Assembly (NCBI GenBank): GCA_002784065.1
Contig: PFJY01000009.1
Coordinates: 1 to 32,669, forward strand
From: Hydrogenophilales bacterium CG_4_10_14_3_um_filter_58_23
Lineage (GTDB): Bacteria; Pseudomonadota; Gammaproteobacteria; Burkholderiales; Sulfuricellaceae
DNA: 32,669 bases
Reading direction: 5' to 3'
Shown here in pieces: positions 5,784 through 31,980 of this stretch. The position numbers and the translations under genes are program-made. Each line of letters begins with the position of its first letter. Position 1 is the stretch's first letter. The notes under the pieces are model-generated. The model saw nothing but the letters and a program-made list of their open reading frames with translations, did no database searches and was not told where the DNA came from.

Positions 5784-5814
5784 GTAGGATGGGTGGAGCG
5801 TAGCGATACCCATC
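5784..5814 (+). repeat. Single GTAG-headed REP-like element (31 bp)
   Basis: gtaggatgggtggagcgtagcgatacccatc, identical to 18944-18974 and to the reverse complement of 13523-13553; stem gatgggt/acccatc. Confidence 0.85.
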
Positions 5815-13469: not shown

Positions 13470-13553
13470 GTAGGATGGGTTGAGGCGCTTGCGCCGATAC
13501 CCATCATTTTACGGTGATGATTGATGGGTATCGCTACGCTCCACCCATCCTAC
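13470..13553. repeat. Paired inverted REP-like element between ftsZ and lpxC
   Basis: Left arm gtaggatgggttgaggcgcttgcgccgatacccatc (13470-13505); right arm gatgggtatcgctacgctccacccatcctac (13523-13553). Confidence 0.85.
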
Positions 13554-17909: not shown

Positions 17910-18029
17910 GTAGGTTGGGTTAGCGGCTTCATCGCGTAACCCAACAAACCTAAAACATCAAAACCCATATTTAAGGAAGCTTGGGTTTGTTGGGTTACGG
18001 CGCAAAAAACCGCGCCTAACCCAACCTAC
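17910..18029. repeat. Paired inverted REP-like element between murB and ddl
   Basis: gtaggttgggttagcggcttcatcgcgtaacccaacaaacc (from 17910) and inverted gggtttgttgggttacggcgcaaaaaaccgcgcctaacccaacctac (to 18029). Confidence 0.85.
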
Positions 18030-18043
18030 ATGAATTCTGTGGT

Positions 18044-18973
18044 TCACGTTTTTTCTCCGATTACCCGCACTTCCGTGACCAGTTCCACGCCGTGCTGCTC
18101 CTTGACCGTTTGACGCACCTTGGCGATCAGCGCCTCGATGTCCGCCGCCGTGGCTCCGCCGGCGTTGACGATGAAATTGGCGTGCTTGGGCGACACCATC
18201 GCTCCGCCGACCGTCGTTCCCTTCAGGCCGCACGCCTCGATCAGGCGCGCCGCGTGATCGCCCGCCGGGTTGCGGAACACCGAGCCGGCATTGGGCTGGC
18301 CAATCGGCTGGCTCGTCACCCGCTTCTCCAGCAAGTCCTTGATCTTTTGCCGCGACACTTCGCCGTTGCCGGGCTTGAAGGCGAACCAGGCGGCGACGAA
18401 CCATTCGCTGGCTATCCCCGCCTTGAGCGCCACGTGGCGGTAGCCGATGTCGAAATCCTGCGGCAGGCGGCGGCGCAACTCGCCGAAACTGTCGATGGTC
18501 AGGACTTCGGTCACGTGTTGCCAGGTCTCGGCGCCGTAACAGCCGGCGTTCATCGCCAGCGCGCCACCCACGGTGCCGGGAATGCCGGCGAGAAACTCGG
18601 CGCCCTCGAAACCGTTCAGAGCGGCAAAACGCGCCACCTTGGGGCTGGCCACGCCCGCCTCGGCGTAAACACCGGCCAGTGCGCCCGGCTTTCCGTGCCA
18701 CAGCGCGATTTGGTTGAGCGCACCGTGCAGCAGCACCACCGTGCCACGCACCCCGCCGTCGCGCACCAGCAAATTGCTGCCCAAGCCGATGAAGTGCACC
18801 GGCTCGTCGGCCGCCAGCCCCTGCAAAAACCGCGACAAATCGGCGATATCCGCCGGAATGTAAAACCGTTCTGCCGGCCCACCGACGCGCCAGCTGGTGT
18901 GCTTGCTCATCGGCTCGTTGCGGCGCAAAACGCCGCGCAGTCCGTAGGATGGGTGGAGCGTAGCGATACCCAT
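18044..18973 (-). CDS. murB: UDP-N-acetylenolpyruvoylglucosamine reductase
   Basis: LRGVLRRNEPMSKHTSWRVGGPAERFYIP, GLGSNLLVRDGG, IPGTVGGALAMNAGCYG, GSVFRNPAGDHAARLIE. ATG 18973 overlaps murC TGA (TGATG). First ten codons are REP sequence. Confidence 0.95.
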   Translation of the reverse strand: MGIATLHPSYGLRGVLRRNEPMSKHTSWRVGGPAERFYIPADIADLSRFLQGLAADEPVHFIGLGSNLLVRDGGVRGTVVLLHGALNQIALWHGKPGALAGVYAEAGVASPKVARFAALNGFEGAEFLAGIPGTVGGALAMNAGCYGAETWQHVTEVLTIDSFGELRRRLPQDFDIGYRHVALKAGIASEWFVAAWFAFKPGNGEVSRQKIKDLLEKRVTSQPIGQPNAGSVFRNPAGDHAARLIEACGLKGTTVGGAMVSPKHANFIVNAGGATAADIEALIAKVRQTVKEQHGVELVTEVRVIGEKT

Positions 18974-18974
18974 C
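18944..18974 (-). repeat. Single REP-like element overlapping murC stop and murB 5' coding end
   Basis: Plus-strand gtaggatgggtggagcgtagcgatacccatc, 31-bp exact match to 5784-5814 and to the reverse complement of 13523-13553. Confidence 0.87.
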
Positions 18975-20361
18975 AACCATCACTCCGCACTAGCTTGTTA
19001 GGCACCTGGCCGATCGAGCCGGCCCCCATGGTCAGCACCACATCGCCGTCCCGCGCCGCATTCAGAATTTCATGCGGCAGTTCCGCCAGCGTTTCCACGA
19101 AAATCGGTTCAACCTTGCCCGCGACACGAATGGCGCGCGCCAATGCTCTGCCGTCTGCGGCCATGATTGGCGCTTCGCCGGCGGGGTAGACTTCGGTCAG
19201 CAGCAGTGCATCGACGGTCGACAGCACCTTAACGAAGTCCTCGAACAAATCGCGCGTCCGGGTGTAACGGTGCGGCTGGAAGGCCAACACCAGCCGCCGG
19301 CCGGGGAAGGCGCCGCGAGCAGCCGCAAGCGTTGCCGCCATTTCCACAGGATGGTGACCATAATCATCGATCAGGGTGAAGCTACCGCCATCCGGCAGTG
19401 CCGCTTCGCCATGGCGCTGGAAACGCCGGCCTACGCCGCGGAACTCGGCCAATCCCTTGACGATGGCCGTATCCGGCGCGCCCACTTCCGCCGCCACCGC
19501 AATCGCCGCCAGCGCATTCAGCACGTTGTGGCTGCCGGGCAAGTTGAGCGTTACCGCCAGTTCCGGCAATCCGGCGCGTTGCACCTTGAAATCCATCCGT
19601 CCGCCGCTGTGGCTGATGTCCGTCCCCCGAACCTGCGCGCCTTCTTCCAAGCCATAGGTGACCATCGACTTGGTGATGCGCGGCATGATCTCGCGCACGT
19701 TGGCGTCATCTGCGCACAACACCGCCATGCCGTAGAAAGGCAGGCGCTGGATGAAGTCGACGAAAGCCTGCTTCAACCTGCCAAAATCGTGCCCGTAGGT
19801 TTCCATGTGGTCGGCGTCGATATTGGTCACCACCGCCATCACCGGCATCAGGTAAAGGAAGGAAGCATCGGACTCGTCCGCCTCGGCGACGATGAAATCG
19901 CCCTGGCCCAGCCGCGCGTTGGCGCCGGCCGCCTCCAGCTTGCCGCCGATAACGAAAGTCGGGTCCATGCCCGCCTCGCCGAGGATACTGGCGATCAGGC
20001 TGGTGGTGGTGGTCTTGCCGTGGGTGCCGGCCACCGCAATGCCCTGCTTGAAGCGCATCAGCTCCGCCAGCATCATGGCGCGCGGCACCACCGGGATGTT
20101 GCGCTCCCTCGCCGCAGCCACTTCCGGGTTGCCGGACTGGACTGCGGTGGAGATCACCACCACATCGGCGCGCTCCAGATTGCTGGCGGCGTGGCCTTGG
20201 TAGACTTGGGCGCCCAGGCTCTTCAGACGGCGTGTAGCAACGTTGTCGCCCAGATCGGAACCGCTTACCTCGTAACCCAGGTTGAGCAGCACCTCGGCAA
20301 TACCGCTCATGCCGACGCCGCCGATGCCAACGAAATGAACGTGTTTGACTTTATGTTTCAT
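18973..20361 (-). CDS. murC: UDP-N-acetylmuramate-L-alanine ligase
   Basis: [58 protein letters not shown]. Start MKHKVKH at 20361 (ATGA overlap with murG). Confidence 0.97.
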
Positions 20362-21554
20362 CCTGCCAACTCCATGCACACCCTTGCCACGTCTGCCGTG
20401 GCTTCCGGCTTGGCCAATTTTTTCGCCGCCTGCGCCATCGCCAGCAACTTCTCGCGGGTAAAACCATGCAGCAGTTCCGCCAGTTTTTCCGCGTTCAATT
20501 CGGTCTGTGGCAGCAGCACCGCTGCGCCGTTCTCGCTCAGGAAACGGGCGTTGCCGGTCTGGTGGTCGTCCACCGCGTGCGGGTAGGGCACCAGCACGCT
20601 GGCCACACCGGCGGCAGTCACTTCGGCCAGGGTCAGAGCTCCCGCCCGGCACACGATCACGTCGCACCAGGCATACATTTGAGCCATGTCGTCGATGAAG
20701 GCGCGGGCGTCGGCAGCGACGCCGGCAGCGGCGTAGTTGGCTCGCAGCTTTTCCAGGTTTTTGGCGCCGGACTGGTGGATCACTTCGGGGCAGTCGGTTT
20801 CCGCAATCAGTGCCAGCGCCTGCGGCACCGCTTCGTTCAGCGCCGCCGCGCCCAGGCTGCCGCCCACCACCAGCAGGCGCAGCCTGCCTTGGCGGCCAGC
20901 CATCCGTTGTTCCGGCGCGGGCAGGGCGGCGATATCAGCGCGCACCGGGTTGCCGCACCGTTCCAGCGCCAGTTTGCGGCAGCCGATTGGCTTGTCGCCG
21001 GAGTTGTTGAAAGCTGACGGGAAAGCCACCAGGACACGATCGGCAAGGCAGGCCAACACTCGGTTGGTCAGCCCGGCCACCGAGTTCTGCTCGTGGATCA
21101 CCAAGGGCCTGGCCAGCAGGGAGGCCATCAGGCCGCCGGGGAAAGCCGTGTAGCCGCCCATGCCGAGCACCACGTCGGGGCGGATACGGAAAATCGCCGC
21201 CGCGCTCTGCCACATCGCCAACAACAGCATGAGCGGCAGCGCCGCCCAGCGCAGCACGCCCTTGCCACGCATCCCGGCGAATTTGACCCAGGCCATTTCG
21301 TAGCCTTTTCCCGGCACCAGCCGCGATTCCATGCCGGCGCGCGTGCCCAGCCACACCACTTTCCAGCCGCGTTCTTTCAGATAATCCGCCACTGCCAGTG
21401 CCGGGAACACATGCCCGCCGGTGCCGCCCGCAATGATGAGCAAAGTTCGTGAGGCGTGAGGCGTGAGGCGTGAGGCATAAGGCGCACAGGTAGCGGCGGG
21501 TTCGTTTTCACCCCTCACCCCTAACCCCTCACTCCTCACCTGTGGCTCGCTCAT
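20358..21554 (-). CDS. murG: UDP-GlcNAc:lipid I GlcNAc transferase MurG with an extended, repeat-encoded N-terminus
   Basis: [71 protein letters not shown] 21554 overlaps ftsW stop (ATGA); SD-like aagggg. Confidence 0.94.
21448..21543. repeat. Heptamer arrays in inverted orientation inside the murG 5' coding region
   Basis: (cgtgagg)x4 at 21448-21475 plus cataagg; then cacccct cacccct aacccct cactcct cacctgt at 21509-21543. Confidence 0.85.
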
Positions 21555-22884: not shown

Positions 22885-24272
22885 ACTTTCGCCTTCCCTA
22901 GTTTTTTAACCGAAGCGATGAACACCTGGGCGCGATGTTCGTAGCTGCGGAACATGTCGAAGCTGGCGCAGGCCGGCGACAGCAGCACCGCATCATCCGA
23001 CCGGGTCTGTTCGAACCCCAGGATCACGGCTTCCTCCATGCTCGCCGCTGCAAATAAGGGCACGCCGCAGTCGGTTAGGGCCGCGCCGATTTTCGGCCCG
23101 TCGCGCCCGATCAGCACGACGGCGCGGGCATGGGCCGACACCGCCGGTGCCAGCGGGCTGAAATCCTGACCCTTGCCATCGCCGCCGGCAATCAGCACCA
23201 CTTTGCACGGCATGCCGTTGAGTGCCGCCACCGTGGCGCCTACATTGGTTCCCTTGGAATCGTCATAGAAGGTGATGCCGTTGATCTCCGCCACCTTCTC
23301 CACCCGGTGCGGCAGTCCCTTGAATTCGCGCAGCGCCTCGATCAGGGGCTGGAGCGGCAGGTCGATGGCGCGGCACAGGGCCAGAGCGGCCAGCGCGTTG
23401 GCGGCGTTGTGCAAGCCGGCAAGCGGCAGATCGGCTACGGCTAACAGCCTATTTTCGCCCTGCGCCAGCCATGGGCCGTTCTCGCCGCCCAGCAATCCCC
23501 AGTCCTCGGGTTTCTGCGGCGCGTCCAGGCCAAACGTCACCGCCTTGCTATCAGGCTTCGCCATCGCCAAGCTGTAACTGTCTTCCCGGTTCAGCACCTG
23601 AACGCCGTTGCCGGCAAAAATGCGCGCCTTGGCCGCAGCGTACTCCGCCATACCGTGATAGCGGTCCATGTGATCTTCGGTCACGTTGAGCACGGTCGCT
23701 ACAGCCGGATTCAGGGTATGCGTGGTTTCCAGCTGGAAGCTGGAGAGTTCGATCACGAACACGTCGGCAGTCTCGCCGCGCCGGCTCAGATCGCTCAATG
23801 CATTCAGCACCGGCAGACCGATATTTCCCGCCACTACCGTATGCAGGCCTGCCTTCTTGCACATCGCACCGACCATCTCGGTCACCGTGCTCTTGCCGTT
23901 GGCGCCGGTGATGGCGATCACCCGGGTTCTTAGCGTTAAGTCCTGAGTCCTGAGCGCCTGGGCGAATAACTCGATATCCCCGACCACTTCCACACCGTGC
24001 GCCAGCGCATCGGCAACGGCCGGTTCGCGCAGGGAAACGCCCGGACTGACCGCGAGCAGGTCGGCATTGCAGAAGACTTCTTCCTTGAGCTTGCCGGTAA
24101 ATAGCGGCACGCCAGGCAGCTCAGCCTGAAGGCGTGCGGCGTGGGGCGGATGGTCGCGCGAGTCGGCGACAGCCACCACCGCACCTCTCGCGTCCAGCCA
24201 GCGCGCCATGGAGAGACCCGTGTCGCCAAGTCCCACCACCAGCACTTTTTTATGTTCGAGGTTAGATTTCAT
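22881..24272 (-). CDS. murD: UDP-N-acetylmuramoylalanine-D-glutamate ligase
   Basis: KVLVVGLGDTGLSMARWLDARGA, ITGANGKSTVTEMVGAM, FYDDSKGTNVGATVAALNGM. Start MKSN 24272 (alternative MAEMKSN 24281). Confidence 0.95.
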   Translation of the reverse strand: MKSNLEHKKVLVVGLGDTGLSMARWLDARGAVVAVADSRDHPPHAARLQAELPGVPLFTGKLKEEVFCNADLLAVSPGVSLREPAVADALAHGVEVVGDIELFAQALRTQDLTLRTRVIAITGANGKSTVTEMVGAMCKKAGLHTVVAGNIGLPVLNALSDLSRRGETADVFVIELSSFQLETTHTLNPAVATVLNVTEDHMDRYHGMAEYAAAKARIFAGNGVQVLNREDSYSLAMAKPDSKAVTFGLDAPQKPEDWGLLGGENGPWLAQGENRLLAVADLPLAGLHNAANALAALALCRAIDLPLQPLIEALREFKGLPHRVEKVAEINGITFYDDSKGTNVGATVAALNGMPCKVVLIAGGDGKGQDFSPLAPAVSAHARAVVLIGRDGPKIGAALTDCGVPLFAAASMEEAVILGFEQTRSDDAVLLSPACASFDMFRSYEHRAQVFIASVKKLGKAKV

Positions 24273-26794: not shown

Positions 26795-28269
26795 GTTGCA
26801 ACCCTCTCAAGGATGCGCGACACCACATCGACATCGGCAAAGGGCAATTTCACACCCTTGATTTCCTGGTAATCCTCGTGACCCTTGCCGGCGATCAGCA
26901 CCACGTCATCCGGCTGCGCCCCGCGCACTGCGGCATCTATGGCTGCGGCGCGGTCATCAATCACCCGATAGTTGGCGCCCATGCCGACGATAATTTCGTC
27001 GATGATGGCGCGGGCATCCTCGCCACGCGGGTTGTCGCTGGTCACGATCACGCTGTCCGCCAGACGCGATGCCACCGCGCCCATCAGCGGGCGCTTGCCT
27101 CGGTCGCGCTCGCCGCCGCAGCCGAACACGCAAATCAGTTGGTTATTACCGCCCGTGATTTCGCGCAAAGTACCGAGCACTTTTTCCAGCGCATCCGGGG
27201 TATGGGCGTAGTCCACCACCACCAGCGGCTTGCCCTCGCCGCCCAGGCGCTGCATACGGCCCGCAACCGATTCAACCTTGCCCAGCTCGCGCACCGCGTC
27301 TTCCAGCGCAATGCCGCTCACCAGCAGTACCGCCAGCGACGCCAGCAGGTTGGAAGCGTTGAAGCGGCCGAGCAACTTGCTGCTCAACGGTGCCGTCCCC
27401 CATGGCGTAAACGCCTTGAAGCGGATGCCTTGTGCATCCGCCACCAGATCGCGCGCCAGAACGGCGAAGCGGCAACCCTCATTTCTCCCCTCCAGGCTGT
27501 AGCCTACCGTCTGCACGCCGCTGCACCCGAGCGTGGCCGCAAGTTCGACGCCGAACGGGTCATCCATGTTGAGCACTGCGTATTGCAGTTCCGGCCAGGC
27601 GAACAGGCCGGCCTTGGCGGCGGCGTAGGACGCCATGTCGCCGTGGTAATCCAGATGGTCGCGCGACAGGTTGGTGAGCACGGCGATGTCGAAATGCACG
27701 CCGTTGACCCGGCCCTGCGCCAAGCCGTGAGACGACACTTCCATCGCCACGCACTTCGCGTCGTCGGCCAGGTAGTCGCGCAGCAAACCATGCAGGCTGA
27801 CTGCATCCGGTGTGGTATTGGCGGAAGGCGCCAGCGCGCCGGGGAAGCCGTTGCCGAGCGTGCCGACCAGGGCGGTTTTTCTGCCCAGCCCGGTCAGGCA
27901 TTGCGCAATCCAGTGGCAGCACGAAGTCTTGCCGTTGGTGCCGGTGATGCCGATCATCCGCAACTTGCGCGACGGCTCGCCATAAACCTGGCTGGCTATC
28001 GCGCCGATTTTGTCGCTCAAGCCATCGACCGGAAGATTCGGTACTTCCCATTCGTCATTCCACTCGAAACCCTCTCGCTCCCACAGCACCGCGTTGGCGC
28101 CGGCGGCAACCGCTTGTGCAATGAACTTGCGCCCATCCATCCGCTCGCCGGGGTAGGCGGCAAAGGCATCGCCGGGTTGTAAGCGGCGGCTATCCACGAC
28201 TAAGCCCCGCACCCCGGCTGAGGCCAGAAAGCTAATGGCTGATAGCTGATGGCTGACAGCTGTCTTCAC
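26788..28269 (-). CDS. murE: UDP-MurNAc-L-alanyl-D-glutamate:meso-diaminopimelate ligase
   Basis: GLVVDSRRLQPGDAFAAYPG, GITGTNGKTSCCHWIAQ, TSDNPRGEDARAIIDEI (DNPR DAP-specificity motif). GTG start overlaps ftsI TGA (GTGA). Confidence 0.96.
   Translation of the reverse strand: MKTAVSHQLSAISFLASAGVRGLVVDSRRLQPGDAFAAYPGERMDGRKFIAQAVAAGANAVLWEREGFEWNDEWEVPNLPVDGLSDKIGAIASQVYGEPSRKLRMIGITGTNGKTSCCHWIAQCLTGLGRKTALVGTLGNGFPGALAPSANTTPDAVSLHGLLRDYLADDAKCVAMEVSSHGLAQGRVNGVHFDIAVLTNLSRDHLDYHGDMASYAAAKAGLFAWPELQYAVLNMDDPFGVELAATLGCSGVQTVGYSLEGRNEGCRFAVLARDLVADAQGIRFKAFTPWGTAPLSSKLLGRFNASNLLASLAVLLVSGIALEDAVRELGKVESVAGRMQRLGGEGKPLVVVDYAHTPDALEKVLGTLREITGGNNQLICVFGCGGERDRGKRPLMGAVASRLADSVIVTSDNPRGEDARAIIDEIIVGMGANYRVIDDRAAAIDAAVRGAQPDDVVLIAGKGHEDYQEIKGVKLPFADVDVVSRILERVATC
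28230..28264. repeat. Heptamer array in the first codons of murE
   Basis: agctaat ggctgat agctgat ggctgac agctgtc (five 7-mers) at 28230-28264. Confidence 0.75.
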
Positions 28270-31889: not shown

Positions 31890-31980
31890 GGTGATGGGTG
31901 AGGGGTGATGGGTGAGGGGTGATGGGTGAGGGGTGAGGGGTGAGGTGTGAGGTGTGAGGTGTGAGGTGTGAGGTGTGAGC
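31890..31980. repeat. 13-unit heptamer tandem array (RGTGAKG type)
   Basis: ggtgatg ggtgagg ggtgatg ggtgagg ggtgatg ggtgagg ggtgagg ggtgagg tgtgagg x4 tgtgagc, uninterrupted 7-bp register. Confidence 0.95.

Follow-up and report, generated by a model that had tools for sequence, protein, structure and literature searches.

A GTAG-tagged REP at the murC-murB junction of a Sulfuricellaceae genome probably supplies the start codon of murB

Introduction

GTAG-tagged REPs and REPtrons are described as repeats with a GTAG end, a 7-bp stem, high copy number, inverted pairs and a REP-flanked RAYT gene, some of which lie at the ends of proteins (PMC3733652). The family described below resembles them in its GTAG end, its 7-bp stem, its pairs with a conserved spacer and its REP-flanked RAYT. 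In the same work N-terminal REPs were mostly deemed misannotated, whereas here comparative, structural and Shine-Dalgarno evidence backs coding use in a peptidoglycan gene.

Rickettsia palindromic elements (RPEs) are, like the repeat at murB, selfish palindromes found in frame within host genes, according to PMC10969869 (citing Ogata et al. 2000). Expression of N-terminally decorated proteins in R. conorii is stated in PMC3733652. As presented there, RPEs are ~150 bp long and have a conserved reading frame of their own, whereas the murB REP has 31 nt and supplies a stop, a start and codons. With 31 bp for a single REP and some 80-90 bp for a pair, the element falls outside the RPE class of ~150-bp palindromes with a conserved peptide frame. 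In E. coli, REPs within 15 nt (<16 nt) of a stop codon are reported to stall ribosomes and lower translation of the upstream gene (PMC12306157). The murB REP likewise places a hairpin directly 3' of a stop codon but, unlike those E. coli REPs, it overlaps the stop and forms the start and coding sequence of the next gene. Stop/start overlaps such as TGATG couple genes by termination-reinitiation (PMC6728339). The murC-murB pair has the same kind of overlap with a Shine-Dalgarno sequence just upstream, whereas its overlap, unlike those, appears to have been made by repeat insertion.

REPs and RPEs have been described before inside genes and at N-termini; unusual here is so well controlled a case involving a start codon. 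N-termini encoded by REPs have mostly been set aside as annotation errors, and the murB case has the controls to take one seriously: copies spread through the genome, other junctions in relatives, conserved sequence immediately downstream, and a transposase. Its comparative support is unusually good and comes from a single genome, that of a sulfur-oxidiser-like bacterium. It serves as a clean and testable instance of essential genes having their stop, start and N-terminus rewritten by a mobile palindrome, and it suggests a genus in which repeats rewrite gene ends repeatedly. Here we present the anatomy of the junction, the dispersal of the repeat, the junctions of relatives, the conservation of the LRG region and the RAYT gene between REPs, all of which were directly observed, together with a proposed history. 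Positions refer to the window, i.e. the whole stretch of 32,669 nucleotides that was analysed.

The repeat family in the genome

The 31-mer occurs three times in the window without a mismatch (none expected in shuffled sequences), at the places given in the preliminary description: 5784-5814 (+), 13523-13553 (-) and 18944-18974 (+). The first copy is intergenic with a truncated partner arm, the second belongs to a complete inverted pair in the lpxC-ftsZ gap, of which it forms one arm, and the last lies at the murC-murB junction. Dispersal beyond the window had been set as a check, and the surveyed draft genome, 88% complete and with 2.8 Mb in 248 contigs, contains 43 copies at three mismatches or fewer, 25 of them exact, with none for the reversed control.

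The repeat opens with GTAG and forms the stem GATGGGT/ACCCATC, with -12.9 kcal/mol for the + strand. Many copies are paired in inverted orientation, about 40-50 bp from start to start, with the recurrent spacer AATCATCACCGCAAA. A RAYT gene (REP-associated tyrosine transposase; NF047646, 6e-53) is located at L148:1610-2020 (C159 of the genome under study, G000) with a REP pair on each side. Its reading frame seems to be interrupted close to the 3' end, so that the gene may be inactive here or its assembly faulty. With GTAG and an imperfect palindrome, many dispersed copies, paired copies with a conserved spacer and a REP-flanked RAYT, the 31-mer fits a GTAG-tagged REP family in a REPtron-like setting. 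The distribution of the family is patchy: it is present in nine of the 41 genomes searched (G000 included), all from the taxonomic family of G000, and G000 has the highest number of copies.

Anatomy of the murC-murB junction

The gene murB (for the essential enzyme UDP-N-acetylmuramate dehydrogenase; 18044-18973, minus strand) is intact with 309 aa (NF010480, 2.6e-113), is the single match in the genome, and has murC (18973-20361, minus strand) directly 5' of it. The GTAG-tagged REP at the junction (18944-18974, +) has the exact 31-nt family consensus, and its minus strand reads G ATG GGT ATC GCT ACG CTC CAC CCA TCC TAC. The preliminary description had proposed that this repeat carries the murB ATG and the first ten codons, and indeed the ATG (18971-18973, minus strand) is inside the REP and codons 1-10 (18973-18944) are wholly so. 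The reported overlap with the murC stop is likewise present: the TGA at 18975-18973 and the ATG form a TGATG at 18975-18971, a stop/start overlap (TGATG or ATGA) as found in termination-reinitiation pairs. A GGAG about 9 nt 5' of the ATG was confirmed at 18986-18983 (minus strand), at the join of old junction DNA and repeat spacer, where it would act as the murB Shine-Dalgarno sequence.

One detail has to be revised. The murC stop had been read as one native T plus GA from the REP; the GA does belong to the REP, but the T is probably not native, because it falls in a putative spacer remnant, AACCATCAC (18975-18983, +), which agrees with the spacer consensus AATCATCAC of the inverted pairs at eight of nine positions (background frequency in the window 1.4e-4). 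Judged by this match, what lies at murB is one half of an inverted REP pair, with nine spacer bases attached. Since the coding strand reads GTGATGGTT 5' of the REP, the last two murC codons (Asp-Gly) are probably element-derived along with the T of the stop. Old junction DNA restarts at GCGGAGT, which is common to G009, and comparison with relatives indicates that the REP is swapped in for the old murC-murB junction.

A different GTAG-tagged inverted pair (GTAGGTTGGGTTAGCGG...CCTAACCCAACCTAC) fills the murB-ddlB gap at 17910-18029, so that REP-type repeats flank both ends of murB.

Junctions in related genomes

Among named relatives, Sulfuricella sp. T08 and Sulfurimicrobium are the nearest. 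A comparison of MurB N-termini had been recommended, and the ten-residue REP-encoded N-terminus of G000 is absent from the 54 MurB junctions read, the window's own apart. A native ten-residue N-terminus with a coincidental repeat was rejected in view of the dispersal of the 31-mer and of these junctions.

MurB starts with MN.ALA.AP..LRG in seven members of the genus or family (G010, G020x, G004, G003, G008, G015 and G013), mostly preceded by a GGAGG or GGAGA Shine-Dalgarno sequence, and with MCANFQLPHS or similar in G005, G009 and G011, there within ACTCAGG heptad arrays; the MCAN start of G007 is related and has no heptads. The heptad ACTCAGG is dispersed only within this genus among the 26 genomes searched; its reversed control is uninformative, as the repeat resembles its own reversal. 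The segment MCANF..LPHS was considered as a dispersed element and rejected as murB-specific and not mobile, as each of three genomes had a single copy.

G009 and G011 have the flanks in common with G000 and lack the insert; in the alignment of these junctions, rows G005x and G007x represent the wrong locus end and were disregarded. G010, G020x, G004 and G011 are the genomes with which G000 groups in a gene tree of the MurB body, and of these four G011 alone has the heptad junction. As this grouping mixes heptad and heptad-free junctions, it implies more than one change at the junction, or an exchange of it.

Start site of murB

The murB frame has a TGA at 18982-18980, and the only ATG, GTG or TTG codons from there to the LRG are the TTG at 18976-18974 and the ATG at 18973-18971, both of which touch the REP. 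The view that a conserved LRG region precedes the next methionine, that of MSKHTSW, was borne out: counted 5' from HTSWRVGG, Gly at -11 is invariant (54 of 54 MurB junctions), Leu or Met occupies -9 in 53 of 54, and an LRG-like motif is present in 41 of 54. An AlphaFold2 model of MurB (39 sequences) has a strand at residues 15-21, with blocks of pLDDT 92-95. The first ten, REP-encoded residues are predicted to be disordered, with pLDDT <50 for residues 1-6 and 50 for the block 1-10. Because the Gly is invariant, the strand is predicted and the only in-frame starts touch the REP, a MurB start upstream of the LRG and in the REP appears to be needed.

According to a rival reading the REP is extragenic and the N-terminus read from it a product of misannotation, with MurB starting at MSKHTSW or some other codon. 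Many N-terminal REPs have been argued to be misannotated (PMC3733652), and other REP copies in this genome precede native starts, those of serS, miaA, purH and an AddA-like gene. A start at MSKHTSW would, however, remove LRGVLRRNEP, which is conserved across the order and belongs to a confidently predicted strand. The downstream ATG also has almost no Shine-Dalgarno sequence (duplex -1.8 kcal/mol, versus -9.8 at the REP ATG region), an unpaired probability of 0.01 and an opening cost of 15.6, and this reading is considered unlikely. Opening costs at the REP ATG and at the next methionine are similar, so that the choice of start rests on the Shine-Dalgarno sequence, conservation and structure. 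From these we infer translation of murB from the REP ATG; the TTG at 18976 could serve instead.

Folding of the start region and proposed coupling to murC

Computed in silico, opening of the murB start costs 19.1 kcal/mol at the REP junction, 14.9-29.5 in the heptad alleles and 3.4-8.6 in the repeat-free MNxALA alleles; the heptad-free start of G007 is likewise costly to open (14.3). The predicted REP hairpin over the start would make murB depend mainly on termination-reinitiation from murC, with ribosomes that finish murC melting the hairpin and re-initiating at the murB ATG. As REPs near stop codons reportedly stall ribosomes in E. coli, an effect on murC translation is possible by analogy.

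It could be argued that the REP is selected at this junction as a regulatory element, for example as a hairpin tuning murC termination or murB output, which would be true domestication. The position of the murB start in the REP hairpin agrees with this, as does the reduced translation of upstream genes reported for E. coli REPs <16 nt past the stop (PMC12306157). The murB copy is, however, the unmodified consensus of a family with 25 exact copies and occurs in one genome only, the junctions of relatives function without a REP, and no test run showed selection. Domestication in this sense is thought quite improbable, and the term 'domesticated' used in the preliminary description is not retained here, the REP-encoded residues being predicted disordered as well.

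Proposed history of the junction

In one lineage of the Sulfuricellaceae, a RAYT-type REP inverted pair would have inserted between murC and murB, at a junction that was already variable and probably heptad-bearing. One REP arm would then have been lost down to the spacer, and the surviving arm with its nine spacer bases would have taken the place of about 40 bp, including the old start codon. The GATGGG end of the REP happens to offer an ATG in the right frame and the GGAG of the old junction was retained 9 nt upstream, so that the new junction would work: TGA ends murC, and the overlapping ATG in the REP starts murB. Ten REP-encoded residues would thereby have been added to a tolerant, disordered MurB N-terminus. 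The account as a whole, from pair insertion and arm loss to a murB start in the REP and reinitiation from murC, is considered quite probable; insertion followed by the loss of one arm, and use of the REP ATG by the cell, are what we infer from the observed junctions.

The arrangement is known from one draft genome (248 contigs, 88% complete). That the junction is an assembly artefact from a short repeat, as a draft with dispersed exact repeats might invite, is barely credible, as the two genes are also neighbours in those relatives that were examined, the flanks closely match theirs and both frames are open.

Repeats at other gene boundaries

Among the 43 copies in this genome and 30 loci in six relatives, no REP-born start besides that of murB is well supported. 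Most REP-initiated frames are mechanical extensions of genes with their own post-REP start or have no Pfam match; those in relatives were judged by eye only.

The gene waaA ends inside a REP (L012:1501-1520, G000 C142), which in G000 adds CRMGGA and a TAG, while the relatives stop earlier, at LIEPYLD, LIEPCIS or LIDEVLNA. MurG has the uninterrupted start MSRTILIMAGG in G003, G005, G008 and G013, and in G000, G004, G010 and G007 it is longer near the start by about 30-40 residues. In G000 the extra residues number about 40, follow Met-Ser and are in large part encoded by GGTGAGG/CCTCACG heptad arrays (21448-21540). The entry of repeats into murG near its start and the end of waaA in a REP suggest that repeat turnover at gene boundaries is habitual in this genus.

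In the pair spacer (GCGGTGATGATTG-ATG-GG), GGTGAT gives an anti-Shine-Dalgarno match of -9.1 kcal/mol just before the ATG. A wider proposal, which we regard as rather doubtful, would make REP pairs portable translation-start modules. Together with the heptads they would, time and again, give cell-wall genes of the genus (murB, murG, murE) new starts and turn freely initiated genes into upstream-coupled ones.

Further repeats were observed in this region and elsewhere in the genome. Heptads of the AGCTGAT type at 28230-28262 encode AVSHQLSAIS immediately past the GTG start of murE. In murD an AGTCCTG heptad (23939-23954) stands in frame just 5' of the GANGKST nucleotide-binding loop, and MurD of G007 has a similar ALRTQDSGLGT at the same place. 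A diverged REP copy (L150:1508-1538, G000 C96) ends 2 nt before the ligA ATG and so occupies the ligA ribosome-binding region. Where the cluster begins, about 13 tandem copies of GGTGAGG (31890-31979) lie upstream of mraZ.
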